64,000 nucleotides of DNA from Nitrogeniibacter mangrovi. Lineage in GTDB: Bacteria; Pseudomonadota; Gammaproteobacteria; Burkholderiales; Rhodocyclaceae. The stretch covers positions 1 through 64,000 of the forward strand of contig NZ_CP048836.1 in the NCBI RefSeq assembly GCF_010983895.1. Direction: 5' to 3'. Position numbers and translations under genes: made by a program. Of this stretch, positions 42,641 through 55,257 are shown in pieces. The notes below the pieces were generated by a model. That model was not told where the DNA came from and did not search any database. It saw only the letters and a list, made by a program, of their open reading frames with translations. Positions within the stretch are counted from its first letter, which is position 1. The number at the start of each line of letters is the position of its first letter.

Positions 42641-42699
42641 GGGCTCGATGTGATGACCTCCCGCCGCAGCCTCAGGAGCGGGAAAGGAGGCCGTTGTTC

Positions 42700-43731
42700 A
42701 TGACAGAGAAGGCAGCAAAAGGGGCATCCGAAAATTACCCGGAGGATATGGCGCGCCATGCCCGGATTCTGACCCGGGATCCGTGCGAACACGCCGCGAG
42801 CCTGCCGGCGTGGTCACAGGAATATCTGCAATTGACGCCCGGTCTGTTCGAAGGCGAGATATCCGAAGCCACGTTTGGGCCGGTGCAGGTTTTTCGCGAA
42901 ACCATCGCGCAGTGCGTCGACGAGAAAGCCAATCCCAGGAAAAACAGCTACACGCTGGGTGTGCCGATCCGCGTGGAACCGGATGGGCTGTGGCAGGGCC
43001 GTGAATTGGTCCCCGATTCGCTCATGTCACTGCGGCCCAACGAGGAACTGCATTTCCGGACGCCGCCCTATTCGAGCATTCTGGTGACGGTGATCGACTG
43101 CCATGCGCTCGAGGCCTTTGCCGACGAGGTCGAGCAGTCCGATGTGGACGTGCTGATGACACGCCCCCATGCGGAGCAGATCCGGCCGGCAGACGCCGAG
43201 GCCTTTCGCGGGACTCTTGCCCGTACGCTCGAGATGGCCCTCGCGTCGCCCGAGGCGCTTCGCTATCCGGCGGTGCGTGATTCACTGAGTGAAACGGTCA
43301 TGAGTGCCGCGCTCGGGGCCCTGGAGGGTGAGAGGGCATCGGCGCGCCGATGCGTGTCCGGACAGCTGGTCCAGCGTGCGATCGTGGAGCGCGCGCGCGG
43401 CTACGTGCTGGCGAATCGCGGCCGTGCCATCAGCGTCGGGGAGTTATGCACCTACCTCAAAATGAGCCGGCGCGGCGTGCATCATGCCTTCATGAACGTG
43501 CTTGGCATCAATGCCGTCAGCTTTCTCAGATACGTCCGGCTGCACGGGGTCCGGAAAGATCTGCTGGCTGCCGAGCCGGAACAGACGGTGTCTTCGATCG
43601 CCTTCAGCTGGGGCTTCTGGCACATGGGTATGTTCGCCACCTATTACAGACAGTTGTTCGGAGAGACGCCCTCGACCACGCTCAAGAAACGTATGCATCG
43701 TCACGCCCGGATGCGGGAGCCGGTGAGTTGA
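42700..43731 (+). CDS. qhpR: AraC-family regulator of the qhp locus (QhpR)
   Basis: The 343-residue protein ends in an AraC/XylS double helix-turn-helix (RAIVERARGYVLANRGRAISVGELCTYLKMSRRGVHHAFMNVLGINAVSFLRYVRLHGVRKDL and VSSIAFSWGFWHMGMFATYYRQLFGETPSTTLK). Its N-terminal ligand domain (about 40-200) is of the kind seen in amine and ethanolamine regulators. In Paracoccus, QhpR activates the quinohemoprotein amine dehydrogenase genes in response to n-butylamine, and this gene sits directly upstream of qhpA in the same direction. ATG 42700 is preferred over TTG 42694 because GGAAAGGAGG ends 9 bases before it. A terminator follows, so it is transcribed apart from qhpA. Confidence 0.85.
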   Translation: MTEKAAKGASENYPEDMARHARILTRDPCEHAASLPAWSQEYLQLTPGLFEGEISEATFGPVQVFRETIAQCVDEKANPRKNSYTLGVPIRVEPDGLWQGRELVPDSLMSLRPNEELHFRTPPYSSILVTVIDCHALEAFADEVEQSDVDVLMTRPHAEQIRPADAEAFRGTLARTLEMALASPEALRYPAVRDSLSETVMSAALGALEGERASARRCVSGQLVQRAIVERARGYVLANRGRAISVGELCTYLKMSRRGVHHAFMNVLGINAVSFLRYVRLHGVRKDLLAAEPEQTVSSIAFSWGFWHMGMFATYYRQLFGETPSTTLKKRMHRHARMREPVS

Positions 43732-44019: not shown

Positions 44020-45624
44020 ATGGGAAAAACAGTATATGCCAATGCGCTCGCGCGCAGCCTGTTGATCACCGCAGGCATCGCGTCGTCGACGTTTTCGTCC
44101 GGTGCGCTGTCCGCACCGTCCGGTGAAACTCTGGTCAATAGCAAATGTACGGCGTGTCATGCGCCCAAGGCCGATGGCCAGCTCGACCGCATCAGCGATT
44201 CGCGTCGCACCCCGGAAGGCTGGGACATGACGGTGGCCCGCATGGGCTATGCCCATGGCGTCAAGCTGACGCGGGAGGAGCGCGGCGCGATCGTCAAGTA
44301 CCTGTCCGATAACTACGGCCTGGCGCCGGAGGAGACGGAGCACTACCGCTACATCATCGACCGCACGCCCAGCGTGGTCGAGCACGCGGAAAACCAGCTG
44401 GTCTTCGATACCTGTGCCCGCTGTCACTCCTACGGGCGCATCGCCGTGCAGCGGCGCACCGAGGACGACTGGCGCAAGCTGGTGCATTTCCACCTCGGTC
44501 AGTTCCCGGCGATCGAGATTCAGGCCGGCGGCCGGGACCGGAACTGGTTCGAGATCGCCACCGGGGACGTGGCCCGGACGCTGGGCAACATCTACAGCTA
44601 CGAGTCCGCGGCCTGGAGCAAATGGAAAGCCATGAAGGCGGCCGATGCCAGCGGCCAGTGGCGCGTGGTGGGCCGCAAGCCGGGACGTGGCGACTACCAG
44701 GGTGAAGCGCGCATCGAGCGCAGCGGCGACGATCGCTATCGCATCGAGATGACCCTGCACTACGCGGATGGCAAGACCGAGACATCCTCGGGCAACGCCA
44801 TCGTCTACACCGGCCACGAGTGGCGGGGGACGGTCCAGCAGGGCGGGCGCGAGATCAACCAGATCTTCAACCTGCTCGATGGCGGCAAGGCGCTCACCGG
44901 GCGCTGGTTCGAGACCGACAACGACGCCATCGGCGGCACCCTGCGCGCCGTTCGCATGGGCGATGCCCCTGCGGTGCTGTCGATCACGCCGACCGCGGTA
45001 CGCGCCGGCTCGTCCGGACGCCTGACGGTCAACGGCGTGGGGCTCGGCGGTGACGTCGATCTGGGCGGTGTGAAGGTGACCAAGGTCGTCAAGCGCAGCG
45101 CCGACCAGGTGGTGGTCGACTACGTGGCGCCGGCCTCGCTGGGCACGGGTGAAGTCGCCGTGAAGATCGGCGGCACGTCCGCGCCGATGCCGCTGGCCAC
45201 CTACGCCCGCATCGACCATGTGAAGGTCACGCCCGAGCATCCCATGGCCCGTGTCGGCGGCAACGGCGGGTCGATGCCCAAGGTGCCGGCGCAGCTCGAA
45301 GCGGTGGCCTTCGCCAACGGTCCGGACGGCAAGCCCGATACCGACGACGACGTTCGCCTCGGTGTGATGCCGGCGAAGTGGTCGGTGGCCAACCTGAATC
45401 CGGTGGCCGCGAAGATGCGCGACACCGAATTCGCCGGGCACATCACCCAGGACGGCCTGTTCGTTCCGAACGGCGCGGGCCCGAATCCGAAGCGCAAGTT
45501 CGGCACCAACAACGCCGGCGAGCTGAAGGTGACGGCCACCGTCCGCGATGGCGACCGCGATGTGAGCGGCTCGGCCGCGCTGATCGTCACGGTCCAGCGC
45601 TTCAACGATCCCCCGATCCGCTGA
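44020..45624 (+). CDS. qhpA: Quinohemoprotein amine dehydrogenase alpha subunit (di-heme)
   Basis: The alpha subunit carries two c-type hemes that take electrons from the CTQ cofactor of the gamma subunit and pass them to external carriers. The 534-residue product has a Sec signal peptide (about 1-32, cut near LSAPSG), the first heme motif CTACH at 43-47, the second CARCH at 132-136, and then beta-rich domains of immunoglobulin type (SITPTAVRAGSSGRLTVNGVGLGG) as in the known enzyme. The ATG at 44020 has a GGGAGAGG ribosome site and gives the full signal peptide. It acts in the periplasm and is first in the structural operon, 26 bp before qhpD. Confidence 0.93.
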   Translation: MGKTVYANALARSLLITAGIASSTFSSGALSAPSGETLVNSKCTACHAPKADGQLDRISDSRRTPEGWDMTVARMGYAHGVKLTREERGAIVKYLSDNYGLAPEETEHYRYIIDRTPSVVEHAENQLVFDTCARCHSYGRIAVQRRTEDDWRKLVHFHLGQFPAIEIQAGGRDRNWFEIATGDVARTLGNIYSYESAAWSKWKAMKAADASGQWRVVGRKPGRGDYQGEARIERSGDDRYRIEMTLHYADGKTETSSGNAIVYTGHEWRGTVQQGGREINQIFNLLDGGKALTGRWFETDNDAIGGTLRAVRMGDAPAVLSITPTAVRAGSSGRLTVNGVGLGGDVDLGGVKVTKVVKRSADQVVVDYVAPASLGTGEVAVKIGGTSAPMPLATYARIDHVKVTPEHPMARVGGNGGSMPKVPAQLEAVAFANGPDGKPDTDDDVRLGVMPAKWSVANLNPVAAKMRDTEFAGHITQDGLFVPNGAGPNPKRKFGTNNAGELKVTATVRDGDRDVSGSAALIVTVQRFNDPPIR

Positions 45625-45650: not shown

Positions 45651-47093
45651 ATGAGTGAATCAAGCGCCCTCTATGTGGACAGCCACGCCTATCACGACTT
45701 CGTCGTCAAGGATCGACACGTGATGCTTCACGTGCCGAGCAGCGGCATCTTCGATCTGGACGGCCTGACCGGCTCGATCGTCGATTACCTGCGTGGCAAG
45801 GAACAGGTCACCTACGACGAAATCCGGCGCACGTTCGCGTCCGCGCCGGAGCCGGGGCGGCTGGCCGAGTCCATCGAGGATCTCAAATCGCTGGGTGTAT
45901 TGAGCGAGCACTTCCCGACGCGCGACCTGGGTGCCCAGGTCAGCGTCACGGAGTTCCCGCTGAGCACCATCGTCATCAACGTGAATACCGGCTGCAACCT
46001 CAGCTGTACGTATTGCTACAAGGAGGATCTGACCACCCCCGCCAAGGGGGAGAAGATGGACCTGGACAAGGCGCGCAAGAGCATCGATCTGCTGCTGGCG
46101 GAAGGGGCGAAGCGGGACCGCCTGAACGTGGTCTTCTTCGGCGGCGAGCCGCTGACGAACATGCCGCTGATCCGGGCGGTGACCGACTATGCCGAGCTGC
46201 GGTGTGCGGCCGGAGGCAAGGGGCTGGACCTGTCCCTGACGACGAACGCCACCATGCTGACCGAAGAGATCATCGATTTCTTCGACGCCCACCGCTTCGG
46301 CATCTCGATCAGCATGGACGGCCCCCAGGCCGTTCATGACGCCCGGCGCAAGACCATCGGCGGCAAGGGGACCTACGAGGTGGTGGCGGCCAAGTCGCGC
46401 ATGCTGCTCGAGCGCTACCGGTCGCGGCCGGTGGGTGCGCGGGTGACGCTCACCGCGGGGTATTCCGACGTGGCGGCGATTCATCGCCACCTGAAGGACG
46501 AGATCGGCTTTGCCGAGGTCGGCTTCGCGCCGGTGACGAGCAACCCGATCACCACCTTCAACCTCGTCGGCGACGAGTTGCGCGCGGTGTTCGACGCCAT
46601 GAAGGCCCTCGGGCGCGAGTATGTGGCGGCGGCCCTCGAGAACCGGAACATCGGCTTCTCGAACATGCACCAGATGCTCTCCGACCTGTACGAGGGGCGC
46701 AAGAAGGCCCTGCCCTGCGGGGCGGGAATCGGCCTGCTCGCGGTGGACCACGAAGGCAAGCTCAACCTGTGCCATCGCTTCACCGGGTCGGAACTGCCCA
46801 CCTTCGGCGACGTGGACTCGGGCATCGACAAGCCCCGCCTCGGCGAATTCCTCGACCAGGCGCTGGACCGGAGCGAACGCGGCTGCAGTACCTGCCGGAT
46901 CCGCAACCTGTGTTCCGGCGGCTGCTACCACGAGTCCTACGCCAACTTCAGCGACCCCCACTCACCCGTCTATCACTACTGCGAATTGCTCAGGGAATGG
47001 GTCGATTTCGGGATCGAGGCCTACCTCGAGATCCTCGAGAAGAACCCCGCCTTCCTTCAGCGGCATGTTGCCAACAGGAGCTCAGAGTTATGA
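45651..47093 (+). CDS. qhpD: Radical SAM maturase QhpD
   Basis: QhpD makes the three intra-peptide Cys-to-Asp/Glu thioether bonds in the gamma subunit. The 480-residue product has the radical SAM motif [11 protein letters not shown] with C115, C119 and C122, the SAM-binding FFGGEPL and an N-terminal peptide-binding domain (about 8-95). A C-terminal SPASM-type cysteine cluster follows ([40 protein letters not shown]). The start at ATG 45651 has AAGGAGAG. Its stop overlaps the start of its own substrate gene qhpC (ATGA), which matches the need to modify the nascent partner. Confidence 0.93.
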
Positions 47094-47410
47094 AACGAAT
47101 GAAAGCGTTGAACAAGAAAGCGCACCAGATCGGGTCCTCGACGGACCAGGGTGCCATCGACCAGGTGGTCGCCATGTCGGCCTCGGTGGCCGGCTGTGCC
47201 ACGACCTTCGACCCGGGCTGGGAGCTGGACCCGTTCCTCGGCGTGGCCGGGCTGTGCCAGCCCATGGAAGCGGATCTGTACGGATGTTCCGACCCGTGCT
47301 GGTGGCCGGCGCAGGTGCCCGACACGCTGCACAGCTACACCGACTGGAACGAGGGCCGGGACGACGCGGCCCGCGACTGGAAGGCCCTGAAAAGTGTGTT
47401 CCCGAAGTGA
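47090..47410 (+). CDS. qhpC: Amine dehydrogenase gamma subunit (CTQ carrier)
   Basis: The 106-residue precursor carries the catalytic quinone. Its four cysteines C36, C56, C66 and C70 have the same spacing (20, 10, 4) as Cys7, 27, 37 and 41 of the mature Paracoccus subunit. With an offset of 29 all partners are present: E45 (Glu16), D62 (Asp33), W72 (Trp43) and D78 (Asp49). C66 and W72 would form cysteine tryptophylquinone, and the other three Cys the thioether bridges. The first 29 residues ([19 protein letters not shown]...) are a leader without Sec features, removed by QhpE; the mature chain should begin SASVAGC. The gene is coupled to qhpD by a 4-bp overlap. Confidence 0.95.
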
Positions 47411-47457: not shown

Positions 47458-48570
47458 ATGGCTAATACCGTGTTTCGTATCGCGCGTCGCGCGCTGATCG
47501 CCGCGACCTCGATTCTCGCGTTGCATTCGACCGGCGCGCTGGCGGCGAAGGACTACATCGTCACCGCCGCGCGCCCGAACCTGATCTTCGTGGCCGATGC
47601 CAAGGCGCGCAAGGTCGTGCGCTCCTTCGAGATCCCCAATACGTCGATGGGCAACAGCCCGCAGGCGCTGGTGGTGTCCAAGGACGGCAAGGTCGGCTAC
47701 GTCATCCACAACCGCTGGGAGACGATCTCCGGCATCGATCTGGACAACGGCAAGGAAGTGTTCCGCGCCGAGCTGTCGGGGGGCGACATTCGCGGCAAGG
47801 CGCCGTTCGCCATCGACCTGAGCCCGGACGGCAAGGAGCTGGCGGTGTTCGTCAATCCGACCCAGCTGTTGCCCGGCGAGTACAAGTCGCTCGATCCGTA
47901 CATCGCCATCTACCGCACCGATGCCGGCGTGGGCGCCCAGCCGGAGCGCAAGCTGAAGACGCCGCGGCGGGTCTCGTCGCTCATCTACTCGGCCAAGGGC
48001 GACATCCTGTACGTCTATAGCTGGGACATGCTCAAGCTCGATCCGAAGACCGGCGAAGTCAAGGGCAAGCATCCGTGGCGCGACTGGAAACGCAAGGATC
48101 GCGGCGAGCCGGACACCCTGGCGATCTGGCCGCAGTGGGAGCAGAGCAACATCTTCGCCACGCCGTTCTACGTGGCCGACACCACCCGCGACACCAGCGA
48201 TTTCTCGACCTATCGGGCGGGGATCTGGTCGCTGGACCTGGAGACCGACCAGGTGAAGTTCACCGAATTCGAGGACGCCTCGGTGGTGCTGTTCTCCACC
48301 GCGGTCAACCCGGTCCGGCGCAACGAAACCTACACGGTCTACACCCAGCTGACCAAGGTGGACCTGGACACCGGGAAGATGCAACGGGTCGATCTGGACC
48401 ACACGTATTACGACGTGAACGTGTCCAGCGATGGCTCCGAGCTCTACATCGGCGGCACCCAGGGCGACATCGCGGTCTATGACAGCAAGACCCTGAAGCG
48501 GCTCGGCAACATCCGTACCCCGAGCGGCGGCGACCAGGTGTTGTCGTCCCTGCGCATGTTCACCCGCTGA
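47458..48570 (+). CDS. qhpB: Amine dehydrogenase beta subunit (propeller)
   Basis: The 370-residue protein has a signal peptide (RIARRALIAATSILALHSTGALA, cut near residue 28) and a seven-bladed beta-propeller pattern. NLIFVADAKARKVVRSFEIP, GKVGYVIHNRWETISGIDLDNGKEV and SSDGSELYIGGTQGDIAVYDSKTLK are typical YVTN-like blades. In the enzyme the beta subunit covers the gamma subunit and helps form the active site. The ATG at 47458 is preceded by GGAGGAAACC, one of the best ribosome sites in the operon. It acts in the periplasm. Confidence 0.93.
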   Translation: MANTVFRIARRALIAATSILALHSTGALAAKDYIVTAARPNLIFVADAKARKVVRSFEIPNTSMGNSPQALVVSKDGKVGYVIHNRWETISGIDLDNGKEVFRAELSGGDIRGKAPFAIDLSPDGKELAVFVNPTQLLPGEYKSLDPYIAIYRTDAGVGAQPERKLKTPRRVSSLIYSAKGDILYVYSWDMLKLDPKTGEVKGKHPWRDWKRKDRGEPDTLAIWPQWEQSNIFATPFYVADTTRDTSDFSTYRAGIWSLDLETDQVKFTEFEDASVVLFSTAVNPVRRNETYTVYTQLTKVDLDTGKMQRVDLDHTYYDVNVSSDGSELYIGGTQGDIAVYDSKTLKRLGNIRTPSGGDQVLSSLRMFTR

Positions 48571-48577
48571 GCGACGC

Positions 48578-50290
48578 ATGAGCACCGATACCCTGGGCAT
48601 GGCCACGGGCGGGCAGGCAATCGCCGTGCCCGCACCGGCCGACATGGCGGATCGCGGTCTGCGGGCATGGATCACATCCTGCCTGCGCCCGGAGTATCCG
48701 GCGCTCATCCTCATCTTGTTCCTGTCGGTGGTCGCGGTGCTGGCGGGGCTGGCCCAGCCCTACCTCACCAAGGCCCTGATCGACGGCGGCATCCTCGCCG
48801 GCGATCGCGACACCATCGTCCTGGTCGGCGCGGGCATGGTGGGGCTGTCCCTGGCCTCGCTCGGCGTCGGCCTGGCCTGTCGCCGGGTGCATGTGGCGGT
48901 GTCGGCGCGGGTGCTTCATCGCCTCCGCGAAGACCTGTTCGCCCATGTGCTGACCCTGCCGCCGGCCTTCTTTTCCCGGATCCGCCAGGGCGATCTGCTG
49001 ACGCGCCTCGAAGGCGATCTGGGCGAGGTGCAACGGTTTGCCGTCGATGCCCTGCTCTCGGCGGTGAGCGCGGTGCTCACCCTGATCGGTACCGTGATCG
49101 TGCTCAGTACCCTGAGCGTCAAGCTGGCGCTGTTCCTCGGCGGGCTCATCGCCCTCAACAGCCTCGCGCTTGCCTGGGTACGGCCGCGCATCGAGGTGTT
49201 GTCCAGACGGGTGCGCGACGCGGGCGTGGACATGTCCAGCTTCCTGGTCGAGCGCGTGGGCAAGGTGCGCTGCGTGCAGACCCATCTGGCCGAGACGCGC
49301 GAACTGACGCAGCTCCAGGGCCTGCATCAGGTGCTGCGCCGGCGCATGATCGACGCCCAGCTGTTCGGTTATCTCGGTGGCGCCATTCCCAACCTGGTGT
49401 TGTCGCTGGCGGTCATCGGCATCTTCGTGTTCGGGGCGCTGGCCATGCTCGGCGGCGAGGCGCTCACGCTCGGCACCCTGGTGGCGTTCGCCACCTACGT
49501 CCAGCGGGCCAGTGCCCCGGTGCACAGCCTGATGGGCATCTACATGCAGTGGCAGCGGGTCAAGGTCGGCCTCGCACGGGTCGATGCCCTGCGCGCGGTG
49601 GCCGCGACCGCGCCGGGCGGTGGCGACGCCTTCCGCCCTGGGGACATCGTCATCCGCGGCCTCACGCATGCCTATCCCGACGCCGCGGCACCGGTGCTCG
49701 ACGGCGTCGACTGCCGCATTGCGCGCGGCGCCAAGGTCTGGCTGCGCGGGCCGTCGGGCTGCGGCAAGTCCACCCTCATCGATCTGCTCCATCGCCAGCT
49801 GGCCTGCCAGTCGGGCGAGATCACCATCGGCGGGCGGGCCATCGACACGATCGAGCTGGCCGCCTTGCGTGCCCAGGTGGTGGTGGTGTCCCAGCAGACC
49901 GAGCTGTTCGCCTGTTCCCTCCTCGACAACATCCGCTATGGCCGGCCATCGGCCGGCGCGGCGGACGTGCAGGCCGTGGTCGAGGCCTCGGGGGTGGGCC
50001 GCTTTGCCGCGCGTCTGCCCCAGGGGCTGGACACCGTGGTGGGCACCAGCGGCACCACCCTGTCCGGTGGCGAACGCCAGCGCGTGGCCCTGGCGCGGGC
50101 GTTGTTGATGGCGCCGGCGGTGCTGATCGTGGACGAGGGCACGTCCTCGTTCGACGAGGCGCTCGAGCTCGATGCGCTGCGGGCCATCGACGCCCTGCTG
50201 CCCACCGCGACCCGCATCATCGTCAGCCATCGTCCGCTCGATCCCGAGGCGTTCGATCAGGTCATCGACATCGACCGGAGCGCCGCATGA
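48578..50290 (+). CDS. qhpF: ABC exporter QhpF
   Basis: The 570-residue half-transporter fuses an N-terminal six-helix membrane domain (about 35-315) to an ATPase with Walker A GPSGCGKS at 391-398, signature LSGGERQRVALARALL and Walker B VLIVDEGTSSFDEA. In the Paracoccus system QhpF is needed to bring the modified gamma subunit into the periplasm. The gene begins 7 bp after qhpB and its stop overlaps qhpE (ATGA). There is no fused peptidase domain; the protease is encoded separately by qhpE. Confidence 0.9.
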   Translation: MSTDTLGMATGGQAIAVPAPADMADRGLRAWITSCLRPEYPALILILFLSVVAVLAGLAQPYLTKALIDGGILAGDRDTIVLVGAGMVGLSLASLGVGLACRRVHVAVSARVLHRLREDLFAHVLTLPPAFFSRIRQGDLLTRLEGDLGEVQRFAVDALLSAVSAVLTLIGTVIVLSTLSVKLALFLGGLIALNSLALAWVRPRIEVLSRRVRDAGVDMSSFLVERVGKVRCVQTHLAETRELTQLQGLHQVLRRRMIDAQLFGYLGGAIPNLVLSLAVIGIFVFGALAMLGGEALTLGTLVAFATYVQRASAPVHSLMGIYMQWQRVKVGLARVDALRAVAATAPGGGDAFRPGDIVIRGLTHAYPDAAAPVLDGVDCRIARGAKVWLRGPSGCGKSTLIDLLHRQLACQSGEITIGGRAIDTIELAALRAQVVVVSQQTELFACSLLDNIRYGRPSAGAADVQAVVEASGVGRFAARLPQGLDTVVGTSGTTLSGGERQRVALARALLMAPAVLIVDEGTSSFDEALELDALRAIDALLPTATRIIVSHRPLDPEAFDQVIDIDRSAA

Positions 50291-50937
50291 AGCCGCGCAT
50301 CCGGGTGGGGTTGATCGATGGCGCGGTGGCCGGCGAGGCGGCGCCGGCGGTGGTCGAGAGCCGTCGTTTCAACGGCCTCGACGCCGCCGACGGGGACCAC
50401 GGCGGCCTGGTCGCGCAGTGCGTGCTCGAGCACTGCGCCGAGGCCGAGCTGATCGTCGCGCAGGTGTTCGACCGTCGCCGGGTGGCGCCGGTCGCCGCCA
50501 TCGTCGATGCCATCGACTGGCTCGTCGAGCGCGACGTGGCGATCATCAACATGAGTTTCGGCATGGCCCACGAGACCCCGCTCATGGCGGCGATGTGCCG
50601 GTATGCCGCGGGCTGCGGAGCCACGCTCGTCGCGGCCGCGCCCGCGCACGGGCCGGCCGCGTTTCCGGCGCGGCTGGACGCCTGCCTCGCGGTGACCGGC
50701 GACGCGCGCTGCCAGCGCGGCGAGATCGCCTATCTGGGCACCGCCAACAGCGATTTCGGCACCCATCCCTTCGTGCGCCCGGGGCAGCCGCAGGCGGGCG
50801 GCGGGGCGAGCATCGCCACCGCCCGCATGAGCGGCCTGGTGGCGGCCCGGGTCGCCGCGGGGGTGCCCGCGTCCCGACTCCGTCAGACCCTCATCGGGGC
50901 AGCGCGACATGTGGGCCCGGAGGTGCGTCATGGCTAG
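50287..50937 (+). CDS. qhpE: Subtilisin-like leader peptidase QhpE
   Basis: The short 216-residue serine protease removes the leader of QhpC. The catalytic triad is visible: D11 (VGLID), H38 (GDHGGLVAQ) and S175 (GGASIATARMSG), with NMSFG carrying the oxyanion region. There is no signal peptide, so it acts in the cytoplasm. The length is far below secreted subtilisins, as expected for QhpE. Its end overlaps the start of the CcmF-like gene by 8 bp. Confidence 0.9.
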   Translation: MKPRIRVGLIDGAVAGEAAPAVVESRRFNGLDAADGDHGGLVAQCVLEHCAEAELIVAQVFDRRRVAPVAAIVDAIDWLVERDVAIINMSFGMAHETPLMAAMCRYAAGCGATLVAAAPAHGPAAFPARLDACLAVTGDARCQRGEIAYLGTANSDFGTHPFVRPGQPQAGGGASIATARMSGLVAARVAAGVPASRLRQTLIGAARHVGPEVRHG

Positions 50938-53089
50938 TCGCCTCTTCGCCCTGTCGCTGGCCCTGTGCGCGATCACGCTGGCGCTCGTGCCGGCGCTGGG
51001 CAATGCCGTGCTCGTGGCGACGGCCCTGCTCGTGGTCGCCGCCTGCCGGCGGCCCGGCCAGCGCGACCGCTGGCTCGCGCTGGCCACCGGACTGGTCTGG
51101 GGCGCCCTGGCCGCCCTGGCGTTCGCCTTGCTGACCGACAACTTCGCACTGCGCTACGTGTGGATCTACAGCGGCGCCGAGCTGCCGGCGTATCTCAAGT
51201 TTGCCAACCTGTGGGGCGGTGACGAAGGCACCACCTTGCTGCTCGCGGCGGTGCTCCTGGCGCTGGCGCGCCGGCCGGCGGCACGCACCGCGCCCGGCCA
51301 GGCGACTGCCTGGCTGGCGGCCTGGTATCTGGCGGTCGCCGCATGGCTGGGGCCCTTTGCCGCCACCCCGGCCGACTGGCTGGCGCAGAAAGCGGCGCAG
51401 GGCATGAACGCCCATCTGATGGAGATCTGGATGGTCCTGCATGCGCCGCTGGTGCTCCTGGCCTATGCCTGGACCCTGGCCCTGTGCGCGCCGGCGCTCG
51501 ATGCCCTGGCCGGGCGCCTCAAGCGCTGGCCGGCCGGGGCCTTGCACGACGCCCGGCGCGCCTGGGCGCTGCTGACCGCCGGCATCGGCTTCGGCATGAT
51601 CTGGGCCTTCGAGGATGCGATGTACGGCCAGTTCTGGCATTGGGACCCGGTGCAGACGGCGGTGTTCGCGGTGTGGTGCGCCCTCGGCGCCCACCTGCAT
51701 GGCGCGCGCGGCTGGTCGGCCCGCGCGGGGGCCTGGCGCTGGGTGCCGGTGTGGGCGTTGCTGGCGGCCGTGTTCACCGTGGCGGCCATGGCGGTGACGC
51801 GCAACGAGACCCTGGCCAGTTCCCATCGCTATATCGGGACCACCTCCTGGCGTGCCCATGGCCTCACCCTGGTGGCGTTGATCGTCGCCGGTGCGCTGGC
51901 GGCGTGGCGGGGCCGGGCACCGGCTGAGCCGACCGCCGCGCGGCCGCGCGCGGCCCCGCTCAACGCGCTCGCGCTGCGGCTGACCCAGCTGTGCTTCGTG
52001 GTGCTCGCCGTCTGTGCCGCGGCCTATCTGGCCTGGGCCTTCACCGCCAGCGCCCTCGGCCTGCCCCGGCCGGATCATCTGCGCCCGTTCTTCGAAACCC
52101 TGAACAACTGGGCCAACAGGACCGAGATACCGCAGCTGCGCGCCGCCTTCGCCCAGTGGGACATGGACGGCTACGGCGCCGCCCGCGGACTGATATGGCC
52201 GCTGGCCTGCCTGGGCGTGGTCGGCGGCTGGTTCTTCATGCGCCGCATCGCGCCGCTGGCCGGCTGGCTCTCGCTGCCCCCGGTGCTGCTCGCGGGCACC
52301 TGGGTGTTCCTGACCGGCGGGCCGCTCACCGAGGGCTATCGTGGTACCGGCGTGCTGTCCCAGTCCATCGTCCACCTCCTGCCGGGGCTCGACGTGTGCC
52401 TCGTGGCCGGTGCGTATCTGGCCATCGCCTGTGCGCTGTGGGCGCTCGGCCGGGCATGGAAGACCCCGTCCTCGGCCGGCTACGTGCTGCCGCTCGGCCT
52501 GGTGCATGTGGGGGCCATCCTCGCCCTCTGGGGCGGGCTGATGGCCACCGCGCTCAACGGCTATTCCCAGCACCGGATCGAAGTGGGCGAGGACTGGGTG
52601 CACGGCTATCGCGGCTATCAGCTGCGCATCACGGAGGTGGCGGTGGAACGGGGGGACGACGGCGGTGCCCGGGTCTCGCCGTCCCCCTACCGGGCGGCCG
52701 CCACCATCGAGGTGAAGCGCCCGGGCCGGCCGCGGGTGAGCGGCCAGGCGCTGTACCGCGACAGCCGCTCGGCGCTGGAGAACTACAGCGGCCCGGTGCG
52801 CCAGATCTGCGAAATCCTCGACTACCGCTACTCGCGCTACGCCTCGGTGCCCGGCTATGTGCTGCATCCGTTCATCGAGCACGGCTGGGGCCGCGACGTG
52901 CAGCTGTGGGTGAATCCGGCCGCCATCGTCGCCGGGCTGGGCGATGCGGGTGCGTCGCGTGAGGTGGTGGCGGTGCTGCGGATCTTCCCGTTCGCGTCGT
53001 GGCTGTGGATCGGCCTCACGCTGATGGCGCTGGCCAGCCTCTGGCTGGGATTCCTGCCGCCACGCAAAGCCAAGGAGCCTGTCGCATGA
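50930..53089 (+). CDS. CcmF-like cytochrome c heme lyase in the qhp operon
   Basis: This 719-residue polytopic membrane protein belongs to the CcmF/NrfE heme-handling family. NLWGGDEGTTLLL corresponds to the early WG..EGS block, the heme-binding tryptophan-rich (WWD) loop is YGQFWHWDPVQTAVFAVW with W236, W238 and D239, and VTRNETLASSHRY matches the region after it. The C-terminal periplasmic part (LVHVGAILALWGGLMATALNGYSQHRIEVGEDW, GYRGYQLRITEV, YRAAATIEVKR) follows the CcmF pattern. ATG 50930 has GGAGG six bases upstream. It overlaps qhpE and qhpG, so it belongs to the operon. It probably helps attach heme to QhpA. I know of no such gene among the classic qhpADCBFEGR set; the assignment to QhpA is inference. 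Confidence 0.85.
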   Translation: MASRLFALSLALCAITLALVPALGNAVLVATALLVVAACRRPGQRDRWLALATGLVWGALAALAFALLTDNFALRYVWIYSGAELPAYLKFANLWGGDEGTTLLLAAVLLALARRPAARTAPGQATAWLAAWYLAVAAWLGPFAATPADWLAQKAAQGMNAHLMEIWMVLHAPLVLLAYAWTLALCAPALDALAGRLKRWPAGALHDARRAWALLTAGIGFGMIWAFEDAMYGQFWHWDPVQTAVFAVWCALGAHLHGARGWSARAGAWRWVPVWALLAAVFTVAAMAVTRNETLASSHRYIGTTSWRAHGLTLVALIVAGALAAWRGRAPAEPTAARPRAAPLNALALRLTQLCFVVLAVCAAAYLAWAFTASALGLPRPDHLRPFFETLNNWANRTEIPQLRAAFAQWDMDGYGAARGLIWPLACLGVVGGWFFMRRIAPLAGWLSLPPVLLAGTWVFLTGGPLTEGYRGTGVLSQSIVHLLPGLDVCLVAGAYLAIACALWALGRAWKTPSSAGYVLPLGLVHVGAILALWGGLMATALNGYSQHRIEVGEDWVHGYRGYQLRITEVAVERGDDGGARVSPSPYRAAATIEVKRPGRPRVSGQALYRDSRSALENYSGPVRQICEILDYRYSRYASVPGYVLHPFIEHGWGRDVQLWVNPAAIVAGLGDAGASREVVAVLRIFPFASWLWIGLTLMALASLWLGFLPPRKAKEPVA

Positions 53090-54459
53090 AATCGTCGCCG
53101 GTGATCGTTCTGGGCGCGGGTCCCGCCGCGAGCCTGTTGGCCATGGCCCTGGGCCGAAGCGGTATCGATGCCACCGTGATCGGGATGCCCCGCCGGGAGA
53201 GCGCGGTGGAGGGGTTGTCGCAGCGGGTGGTGGAGGCCCTGCAGCAGTTCGGCTGCGAGCACGCCTTGCGCCTGCTCGGGCCGCGCTGGTTGCGGGTGTC
53301 CCGATGGGGCGGCGAGGAATCGTCGATGAACGGCGAGTTCGTCGTCGAGCGGCGGGCCTTCGATCAAGCCCTGCTGCGCGACGCCGGCGACCATGGCGTG
53401 CGCCAGGTGGCGGGGCAGGTGCGCCGGGTACGCAAGGACGACGACGGCCGCGGCAGGGTGGTCGGCTGGACCGAAGCGGACGGTACCGAACAGACGGCGC
53501 GGGCGGCGCTGGTGGTGGAATGCCGTGGCCACACCGCGCCCAAAGGCGGCCCCGACCGCCATGCCGGCCGCCCCCTGGTGGCCATCAGCCGGACCTTTCA
53601 GGGCGCCCGCGCGCAGGCGCGCACGACGCTGACCGAATCCTTCCCGATGGGCTGGGCCTGGGGCGGGGTGGACCCGACCGGCACCGCCTGCATCCAGGTG
53701 GTAGTCCTGCCCGAGCTGGTCACCCGGTGCCGGGGCGATCTGGATGCGGTCCATGACGCCTGCCTGTCGCAGCTGACGCTGATCGGCGAGCGCCTCGGTC
53801 GGCGCCTGAGCCCGATCGGCACGGCCCGCGCACGGGGCATCCGCCCAGCGCTGCGCGATCGCTGTTTCGCCCCCGACTACCTGCGGGTGGGCGATGCCTG
53901 CTACACCAGCGATCCGCTCTCCGGACATGGTGTGTTCGAGGCGGCCTCGGGGGCCCTGGCCGCCGCGCCGGCCATCAACACCTTGCTCAACCACCCGGCC
54001 GAGGTGGCCACCGCCATCGACTATCTGGACGAGCGGGTCCGCACGGTTTACAGCGCGCGCATGAGCGCCGCCCGCGAGCACTACCGGGCCGAGAGCGCCT
54101 GGGCCGAGGCCCCGTTCTGGCGTTGCATGCATGCCATGAGCGTGCCCCAGGCGGCCGACGAGCTGGCGCCGGAGGCGCCGATGCGGCTGGTGGACAAGGG
54201 GGTGGTCGAGCATGGACGCATCGTGTCCCGTCCGGTCCTCGTGAGCCCGGCCTATCCGCGCGGCGTGCGTTTCGTGGGGGCGGTCGATCTGGGCGAGCTG
54301 ATCGAAACCACCCGCCGGCAGCCGGGCCTGAGCGTCGACGACCTGAGCCGCGCCCTGCGCTTGCCCGCCGACGAGGTGAGCCGGGCGTGCGCCTTCATCC
54401 ACCGTATTCGGCAAGCAGACCCTGCCGACACTCGAGAAGCAAACTCACGACATTCCTAA
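53086..54459 (+). CDS. qhpG: FAD monooxygenase QhpG
   Basis: The 457-residue flavoprotein begins with a Rossmann motif (VIVLGAGPAASLLAMALGRSG) and contains YLRVGDACYTSDPLSGHGVFEAASGA, the second FAD block of the single-component monooxygenase/halogenase group. QhpG hydroxylates the future CTQ tryptophan of QhpC, working on the chain already cross-linked by QhpD. The start overlaps the stop of the CcmF-like gene (ATGA). The tail of about 90 residues (LIETTRRQPGLSVDDLSRALRLPADEVSRACAF) looks like a small helical domain, perhaps for binding the QhpC/QhpD complex. Confidence 0.9.
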   Translation: MKSSPVIVLGAGPAASLLAMALGRSGIDATVIGMPRRESAVEGLSQRVVEALQQFGCEHALRLLGPRWLRVSRWGGEESSMNGEFVVERRAFDQALLRDAGDHGVRQVAGQVRRVRKDDDGRGRVVGWTEADGTEQTARAALVVECRGHTAPKGGPDRHAGRPLVAISRTFQGARAQARTTLTESFPMGWAWGGVDPTGTACIQVVVLPELVTRCRGDLDAVHDACLSQLTLIGERLGRRLSPIGTARARGIRPALRDRCFAPDYLRVGDACYTSDPLSGHGVFEAASGALAAAPAINTLLNHPAEVATAIDYLDERVRTVYSARMSAAREHYRAESAWAEAPFWRCMHAMSVPQAADELAPEAPMRLVDKGVVEHGRIVSRPVLVSPAYPRGVRFVGAVDLGELIETTRRQPGLSVDDLSRALRLPADEVSRACAFIHRIRQADPADTREANSRHS

Positions 54460-54471
54460 GGAGACAAACCA

Positions 54472-55257
54472 GTGAATCCAAGACGCAGCCAATTTGCCCT
54501 GATCGCCCTGCTGCTGGGGGCCTCGGCACCGGTCGGCCACGCCGTGGCGGGGGACATGACCGACCGTTTTTCGGTGACGACCAACGTCGGGCTGTTTTCC
54601 CAGTACATCTTCCGCGGCATCAGCTACACGCAGGAAAATCCGGCGGTGCAGGGGGGTGTGGACATCGCCCACGACAGCGGCCTCTACCTCGGCATCTGGG
54701 GCACCAACGTGAGCGATGCCGCCCTGAACAACGCGGCCGGTGAAATCGACGTGTATGGCGGCTACGCCGGTCAGGTGGGCGATTTCGGCTACGACGTCGG
54801 CTTCCTGCAGTTCCTCTTCCCGGGGGGCGAGATCAACGGCACCAGCGAGAGCTACAACACCCTGGAGCTGTATGCCGGCCTCAGCTGGGGCCCGATCGGC
54901 CTGAAGTACTCCCACACCGTGTCGGATTACTTCGGCTTCAACAACGACACCTTCGGCCAGGGGCGTGGCGGCTCGAGCGGCTCGAACTACATCGAGGCCA
55001 ACTTCAACCACGAATTCCTGCCCGGCTGGTCGGTCAGCGCGCACGTGGGCCGCCAGCACGTCGAGGAATACAGCGAATACAGCTTCAACGACTGGAAGGT
55101 GGGCGTGGTGCGCCAGTTCGGCAGCGGCTGGGAGGCCGGGGTGGCCTGGGTCGACACCAGCGCGGATTCCGATCTGTACACCGTCTGTGACGACAACAGC
55201 CACTGCAAGGACACCGGCAAGGGCAAGTGGCTGGTGCATGTGAAGCGAAGCTTCTGA
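54472..55257 (+). CDS. TorF-family putative outer-membrane porin
   Basis: The 261-residue protein starts with GTG behind AAGGAGAC and has a Sec signal peptide ending near HAVAGD. The rest is a beta-barrel pattern with alternating strands and the TorF/Gcw_chp blocks SVTTNVGLFSQYIFRGISYTQENPAVQGGVDIAH and GLYLGIWGTNVS. It ends in a terminal Phe (VKRSF), as usual for outer-membrane proteins. It lies 12 bp after qhpG and before a terminator, so it is the last gene of the qhp operon. Uptake of amine substrates across the outer membrane is the obvious guess, but no transport data are known to me for this family. Confidence 0.85.
   Translation: MNPRRSQFALIALLLGASAPVGHAVAGDMTDRFSVTTNVGLFSQYIFRGISYTQENPAVQGGVDIAHDSGLYLGIWGTNVSDAALNNAAGEIDVYGGYAGQVGDFGYDVGFLQFLFPGGEINGTSESYNTLELYAGLSWGPIGLKYSHTVSDYFGFNNDTFGQGRGGSSGSNYIEANFNHEFLPGWSVSAHVGRQHVEEYSEYSFNDWKVGVVRQFGSGWEAGVAWVDTSADSDLYTVCDDNSHCKDTGKGKWLVHVKRSF

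Follow-up and report, generated by a model that had tools for sequence, protein, structure and literature searches.

Why does an operon for an amine dehydrogenase carry a gene that resembles a cytochrome c synthase? This question is raised by the first 64,000 nucleotides of contig NZ_CP048836.1 of Nitrogeniibacter mangrovi (assembly GCF_010983895.1, family Rhodocyclaceae), the whole of which we call the window. There, an open reading frame (ORF) of 719 codons on the + strand (50930..53089, with its ATG at 50930 and its stop at 53089) lies among the qhp genes for quinohemoprotein amine dehydrogenase, and we named this CcmF-like gene ccmFL. The simplest reading of the sequence comparisons described below, to which we give about an even chance, is that CcmFL is a qhp-specific paralogue of CcmF that serves as a heme-handling or attachment factor specific for QhpA, the diheme alpha subunit. 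More generally, the protein is probably a specialised helper for the amine dehydrogenase and not a spare general copy.

Linkage of ccmFL to the qhp genes

The ORF coordinates confirmed that ccmFL overlaps qhpE (50287-50937) by 8 bp and qhpG (53086-54459) by 4 bp, as the earlier note on this DNA had described. The gene order in the window is an AraC/EutR-like regulator, then qhpA-D-C-B-F-E-ccmFL-G, then a TorF-type porin. Among 297 genomes of the family, ccmFL was found at E <= 1e-80 in 15, all of which belong to the 43 genomes with a qhpC over its cut-off (15/43 against 0/254 of the qhpC-negative genomes; Fisher p 2e-14, not corrected for relatedness). Such genome counts are lower bounds, at most three candidates per genome having been scored in the family and at most two in the phylum sample described below. 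The 15 genomes hold 16 loci, and in every one of them ccmFL lies on the strand of qhpD, 1.3-6.2 kb from qhpC. The order qhpE-ccmFL-qhpG occurs in 10 of these loci; in the other six the gene follows qhpB (one), a U32 gene (three) or an aldehyde dehydrogenase gene (one), or precedes qhpA (one), so that its position is not fixed and the picture is not a simple one.

A scan of named genomes gave 13 ccmFL loci in Methyloversatilis, Thauera, Azoarcus and bins named to phylum or class. Seven of them are the same genes as among the 16 family loci, and 12 hold qhp genes on the fetched stretch; the thirteenth, L076, is a contig of 10 kb that has none. Sampling 398 genomes across the phylum added two more, which belong to the class but to another family (734 and 733 bits, with the next best match at 102); in both, ccmFL stands directly upstream of qhpA-D-C-B. 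The distinct loci thus come to 16 + 6 + 2 = 24, and 23 of them lie with qhp genes, the earlier note having proposed to search other genomes for CcmF homologues beside qhpE and qhpG; in many genomes the gene is co-oriented with these genes and overlaps or adjoins them. The order-level search (200 genomes) gave a best CcmFL match outside the own genome of 83 bits, and the search of plasmid proteins only one weak CcsA match. Within the qhpC-positive family genomes ccmFL goes with QhpG, which is present in 14 of the 15 genomes with ccmFL and in 8 of the 28 without it (Fisher p 6e-5, again not corrected for relatedness).

Two Thauera genomes, Thauera sp. Sel9 (L072, L077) and Thauera butanivorans (L073, L076), each carry two qhp clusters that differ from one another and, likewise, two distinct ccmFL copies, which are 57-59% and 52-53% identical to that of the window over the best segment. 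Both clusters and both copies of Sel9 lie on one contig; the second ccmFL of T. butanivorans is on a separate short contig. Genome G734 again complicates the picture: the searches found no ccmFL there, although its two qhpC loci come with QhpD proteins that closely resemble those of G777, a genome with two copies. Because the qhp contigs of G734 stop at 8.5 and 5.0 kb, a gap in the assembly may explain the absence.

On a QhpD tree of 49 operons (the short-contig regions L126 and L127 were retained among the regions), ccmFL occurs in 10/10 rows of the clade of the window, in one nearby Thauera-type operon (L130) and in 5/10 rows of a second clade. Judging by this patchy spread, the history of ccmFL includes more than one gain, loss or move between operons. 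The ratio of nonsynonymous to synonymous substitution rates (dN/dS) was 0.14-0.37 in seven ccmFL pairs, which share members, and is comparable with that of qhpE and qhpG; on these estimates the gene is under purifying selection.

A divergent relative of CcmF with an altered active site

The only Pfam match of CcmFL is PF01578 (46 bits, residues 103-283). Its score with the CcmF model TIGR00353 was 69.3 bits, below the cut-off of 569.05, and both NrfE models were likewise far below theirs. Nonetheless, a profile-profile comparison with CcmF/NrfE (hhalign) aligned residues 58-715 of 719 with a probability of 99.7 and an E of 6.2e-26, so that CcmFL is a whole-protein homologue of the CcmF/NrfE synthases that does not reach the curated family cut-offs. 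The Thermus CcmF structure 6zmq was its only PDB sequence match at E <= 0.01. The earlier note had called ccmFL a full-length CcmF-type gene with a C-terminal CcmF domain. As remote homology both descriptions hold, the domain because the profile-profile alignment spans nearly the whole protein and reaches residue 715, but neither Pfam nor TIGR00353 recognises that domain, and the protein is very divergent: it is 21.4% identical to E. coli CcmF and 21.8% to the CcmF of its own genome, which are themselves 53.3% identical. In a quick maximum-likelihood tree rooted on E. coli CcmC, a branch separated the 16 family ccmFL (97) from 32 CcmF plus NrfE (98), so that CcmFL grouped with neither; the tree has long stems, its careful search is unfinished, and the eight ccmFL loci outside the family set are not included in it. 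On these comparisons CcmFL is a subfamily of its own, a divergent relative of CcmF outside both CcmF and NrfE.

The genome of N. mangrovi has four PF01578 places, and elsewhere in it lies a separate Ccm cluster in which CcmA, B, C, E, F, G, H and I were identified, CcmD not being identified there. The earlier note had proposed to look for such a second cluster, and had allowed that ccmFL might be simply the housekeeping copy in a genome with no other CcmF. The CcmF of the separate cluster scores 753 bits with the CcmF family model. Its CcmH call rests on PF03918, which was over its cut-off in a genome-wide search, the NrfF model being below its cut-off in the cluster; this CcmH is the only one of the genome and sits in the housekeeping place. 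Likewise, each of the 15 family genomes with ccmFL has exactly one CcmF over the cut-off and exactly one CcmH. We therefore rejected ccmFL as the housekeeping or only CcmF. Because there is a single CcmF and a single CcmH per genome, CcmFL comes on top of these, and any CcmH that it needs must be the housekeeping one, used in common.

Next, we examined the residues on which CcmF function depends. We take H173, H261, H303 and H491 to be the heme-ligand histidines of E. coli CcmF, and all four are indeed His in that protein. They align with His171 (codon 51440..51442, P-His1), His257 (51698..51700, TM-His1), His299 (51824..51826, P-His2) and His526 (52505..52507, TM-His2) of CcmFL, all on the + strand. 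All four were kept in 33/33 CcmFL rows, which represent 24 genes (nine genes are present twice, from two collections, as checked by sequence), and in the 28/28 distinct rows of our first alignment, where identical strings had been collapsed from 31. The names of these periplasmic (P) and transmembrane (TM) histidines follow PMC10746174. Also kept in the 28 distinct rows and in 2/2 later rows were, in E. coli numbering, W216 and W253, the tryptophans described as the electron conduit between the two hemes (PMC10663686), and W229, W240, W242 and D243. Because the ligands and the Trp conduit are retained, CcmFL may still handle two hemes and be able to reduce the outer one.

The WWD-type segment of CcmFL, WAFEDAMYGQFWHWDPVQTAV, spans residues 225-245 (51602..51664 on the + strand, counted from the ATG at 50930), and W236, W238 and D239, which the earlier note had placed in its WWD loop, are all present. 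The position of E. coli E246 (Gln242 of CcmFL) is Gln in all 28 distinct and both later rows, and thus in all 24 genes, against Glu in 46/46 other CcmF rows (42 genes), in E. coli CcmF and in E. coli NrfE. Both W229 and E246 are needed for synthase activity of E. coli CcmF, E246A and E246C abolish its cytochrome c synthesis, and the matching residue of CcsBA is also required (PMC10746174); the E. coli CcmF substitutions reported in the parts of that paper at hand do not include E246Q. Of this required pair, then, CcmFL keeps W229 and lacks E246. F241 is replaced by His and N247 by Thr in all 28 distinct and two later rows, E. coli-numbered W236 is Tyr or Phe, and W239 is mostly Val. Moreover, two histidines of CcmFL, H162 (nine residues before P-His1) and H237, the extra invariant His of the WWD-type segment, are present in 33/33 CcmFL rows (24 genes) and in 0/47 CcmF rows. 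Compared with CcmF of System I (E. coli; Thermus 6ZMQ), CcmFL therefore shares a profile match over nearly its whole length, the four ligand histidines, the two conduit tryptophans and W229/W240/W242/D243, but differs in its ~21% identity, in these replacements at 236, 239, 241, 246 and 247, in the extra His162 and in lying with qhp and not with ccm genes. CcmC, a heme handler of the WWD type that is not a synthase, also has a WWD-type segment that lacks Glu where CcmF has E246 (in E. coli CcmC this place is taken by the Leu of WDARLT, as placed by eye); however, it has about a third of the length of CcmFL, acts with CcmD and CcmAB on CcmE and has no TM histidines (PMC10663686, PMC10746174).

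The remaining qhp genes and a UbiU/UbiV-like pair

The other genes of the operon, all on the + strand, were assigned with NCBIfam and Pfam models, and qhpA, qhpD, qhpC, qhpB, qhpE and qhpG were over their NCBIfam cut-offs. The regulator is a candidate qhpR (42694..43731, the longest ORF being taken as its extent) with an HTH_18 match and an EutR score below the cut-off of that model. It is followed by qhpA for the alpha subunit with two CXXCH motifs (44020..45624; TIGR03908, 705.6 bits), qhpD for the radical S-adenosylmethionine maturase (45651..47093; TIGR03906, 775.6 bits), qhpC for the gamma subunit carrying the cysteine tryptophylquinone (CTQ) cofactor (47090..47410; NF037958, PF08992) and qhpB for the beta subunit (47458..48570; TIGR03907). 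The ABC exporter gene qhpF (48578..50290; ABC_membrane and ABC_tran) was identified by Pfam and named by position; of the NCBIfam models listed for it, none exceeded its cut-off. The subtilisin-like protease gene qhpE (50287..50937) matched NF049966 and the flavin monooxygenase gene qhpG (53086..54459) matched NF049967 with 409.9 bits.

The TorF-type putative porin after qhpG (54472..55257; TIGR02001, PF09694) was taken as the longest ORF and its start may lie further in. A porin gene occupies the same place, after qhpG or ccmFL, in the sister operons of the clade (L059, L065-L069, L071, L074, L075), and a second copy precedes qhpR in L065, L069, L141, L142, L145 and L154. The genome of N. mangrovi also has a second QhpG-like flavoprotein (G000:C1:396114-397103; 170.7 bits, below the family cut-off), and similar matches below the cut-off were seen in G207, G233, G662, G767 and G778. 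Compared with the Paracoccus/Pseudomonas operon (qhpABCDEFGR), the window has the named structural and maturation genes, with qhpF by position and qhpR as a candidate, but adds ccmFL and, in its clade, the porin, neither of which is in the gene set given in the available text of PMC7876137. A 2015 study of Methyloversatilis universalis gives its cluster as qhpRADCBFE and lists a plasmid that carries 'qhpX' flanks (PMC5023235, in the text available).

Two additional genes come after qhpE in 18 of the 49 qhp regions, the first UbiV-like and the second UbiU-like of the U32 family (L062:12329-14234, L147-L153, L155-L159 and L161-L165); the pair also occurs in L077:7904-9867 and in L132. The second gene belongs to the peptidase-U32 family (PF01136, two examples), and UbiU is its nearest model with 80 and 91 bits in two examples, against a cut-off of 440 bits; three Cys with a UbiU-like CX6C start are kept in 27/27 rows. 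The first gene had no Pfam match (two examples) and no NCBIfam match (one example), but a UbiV-like Cys pattern, one Cys far upstream and then C-X18-C-X3-C in the reference, is kept in 26/26 rows (24 distinct); in UbiV itself the spacing is X12, as in the UbiU/UbiV patterns of PMC6747719. One locus, L166 (G803), was left out when invariant columns of the U32 alignments were listed. Its qhp-like cluster is very divergent, includes both UbiU/UbiV-like genes and has a TAG stop reported within the qhpC match.

Both genes, on either strand, were found by qhp in 16 of the 21 qhpC-positive genomes without a QhpG over the cut-off and in 7 of the 22 with one (Fisher p 0.006). Because the pair is commoner in the genomes without QhpG, this distribution suggests that it may be an oxygen-independent replacement for the hydroxylation of the CTQ tryptophan by QhpG. 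Five family genomes (L061, L137, L138, L139 and L140) have qhpADCB but neither a QhpG over the cut-off nor the pair near qhp. In the open PMC literature we found no paper that joins tryptophylquinone with U32.

Possible functions of CcmFL

If CcmFL is a QhpA-specific factor, it would be made together with the amine dehydrogenase and sit in the cytoplasmic membrane, where the same four histidines as in CcmF would hold a transmembrane b-heme and a periplasmic heme, and the same two tryptophans would let electrons move from the inner heme to the outer one. It would take heme, most likely from holo-CcmE, and hand or attach it to apo-QhpA, borrowing the single CcmH of the cell together with CcmG and CcmI. 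The active site would be a rebuilt one, with Gln for Glu, His for Phe and an extra His before P-His1, and because of this the attachment step, if CcmFL makes it, would differ from that of CcmF. The operon points to the amine dehydrogenase as the client, QhpA being its known heme protein. Heme binding by CcmFL, QhpA as its client, the partnership with CcmE and CcmH and any catalysis are what we infer. Among 40 listed neighbour clusters (ORFs of at least 80 aa, clusters in at least 4 of the 49 regions) a single one had CXXCH, in 5 of the 16 regions with ccmFL, so that no other c-type cytochrome client was general.

Several observations weigh against this reading. The Glu required in CcmF is Gln in every copy, and the genome-wide CcmH search placed no CcmH-like partner gene alongside ccmFL in the 15 gene-positive family genomes. 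QhpA has ordinary CXXCH sites only, whereas known dedicated lyases go with atypical ones: two CXXCH were found in 48/50 QhpA pieces of the 49 regions (16 with ccmFL and 32 without, the other two pieces being cut off at region ends), as well as in 18/18 aligned QhpA rows, three of them from operons without ccmFL, and 2/2 later rows. We thus rejected an atypical heme motif as the reason for a dedicated lyase; QhpA, with two ordinary motifs regardless of ccmFL, gives no reason for a special one. Furthermore, 28 of the 43 qhpC-positive family genomes have no ccmFL. When these were searched again with a ccmFL profile, 20 gave housekeeping-level matches only (<=59 bits) and eight none at E <= 1e-5, which does not show that CcmF is absent from these eight, the profile being weak for CcmF; the ccmFL-positive genome G667 gave 1152 bits in the same search. 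Accordingly, ccmFL is not needed in every lineage. An AlphaFold2 model of CcmFL (14 sequences, L059 left out of the alignment) was weak, with a mean predicted local distance difference test (pLDDT) of 64.5 and a predicted template modelling score (pTM) of 0.65. A Foldseek search of the PDB with it yielded nothing at E <= 0.001, and CcmF was absent from the 50 matches listed, a result that could be set on the same side but that we weighed neither for nor against. The earlier note had held that the operon brings its own lyase to load the hemes of QhpA. The dedication to qhp stands, given the 15/43 against 0/254 genomes; a heme lyase loading QhpA is called into question by the Gln and by the single CcmH in the housekeeping place. 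Nor did the reasons it offered, assembly with the cross-linked gamma subunit or limiting Ccm, find support, given the ordinary motifs and the qhpC-positive genomes that lack the gene.

Because the WWD site is altered, readings of CcmFL as something other than a synthase have to be weighed as well. The protein could act as a heme reductase, or as a chaperone for heme loading, that readies heme or apo-QhpA and leaves the making of the thioether bonds to the housekeeping CcmF and CcmH. The intact reduction conduit, the replaced Glu and the presence of housekeeping CcmF and CcmH in all 15 gene-positive genomes fit this idea. We consider it unlikely, though the likeliest of these other readings, as we know of no scheme in which heme preparation and bond formation are two separate steps, and CcmF itself is proposed to perform the reduction (PMC10663686). 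Alternatively, CcmFL might no longer be a synthase and instead serve as a diheme membrane redox protein in the last oxidation of CTQ formation: in the periplasm it would take electrons from QhpC in its 6,7-dihydroxy-Trp form and pass them through the Trp pair and b-heme to the membrane. The kept ligands and conduit, the loss of the Glu and the new, invariant H162 and H237 agree with such a role; the last CTQ oxidation has no assigned enzyme, the QhpA hemes being suggested for it, and MauG, a diheme enzyme, does a comparable job in the formation of tryptophan tryptophylquinone (PMC7876137). But the potential of the CcmF b-heme, -147 mV (PMC10663686), is low for an acceptor from a quinol, and 28 of the 43 qhpC-positive family genomes do without the gene, which makes this quite unlikely. 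Slightly wider is the notion, which we regard as likewise quite unlikely, that a CcmF was turned from a synthase into a qhp-specific membrane diheme oxidoreductase finishing CTQ in the periplasm by means of its Trp-linked hemes, a MauG-like role on another fold, or that CcmFL carries out a new, QhpA-specific heme insertion.

An electron-transfer partner of the finished enzyme, leading electrons from the QhpA hemes to the quinone pool, would also be a membrane protein of this operon with predicted transmembrane and periplasmic hemes. Quinohemoprotein amine dehydrogenase has known soluble electron acceptors, though, and the CcmF b-heme potential given above (PMC10663686) runs the wrong way, so that we find this very unlikely. 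It is hardly credible that ccmFL is a housekeeping paralogue in decay or kept as a spare, without a function of its own, or that the cell has no other CcmF: its low similarity to CcmF would fit, but dN/dS, the invariant ligands, the linkage to qhp and the separate housekeeping cluster contradict it.

The nearest precedents for a QhpA-specific CcmF paralogue are SirE, needed for SirA, and NrfEFG, needed for E. coli NrfA (PMC6976685). As with these, a CcmF paralogue lies in the gene cluster of its client besides a housekeeping CcmF. Their sites, however, are atypical (CXXCK, CX12NKGCH) and they have the CcmH-like NrfF or SirF (PMC6976685, in the text at hand), whereas ccmFL goes with ordinary CXXCH and no CcmH-like gene. 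E. coli NrfE differs further in keeping the WWD Glu and grouping with CcmF in the quick tree; SirE we set apart by its description. In the open PMC literature we found no paper that joins CcmF with amine dehydrogenase, and tryptophylquinone with CcmF only in a paper on archaeal iron and sulfur metabolism; subscription work, including a 2014 gene study and a 2008 study of P. putida U, lies outside this scope and may mention the gene.

If CcmFL is indeed a QhpA-specific factor, the maturation set of the amine dehydrogenase would have an unnamed membrane part in some lineages. CcmFL would also be a natural test of whether heme attachment cannot do without the WWD Glu, with Gln in a whole subfamily that keeps every heme ligand. 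Finally, it would show a CcmF paralogue devoted to a client with ordinary CXXCH sites, a case for which the known dedicated lyases NrfE and SirE do not account.

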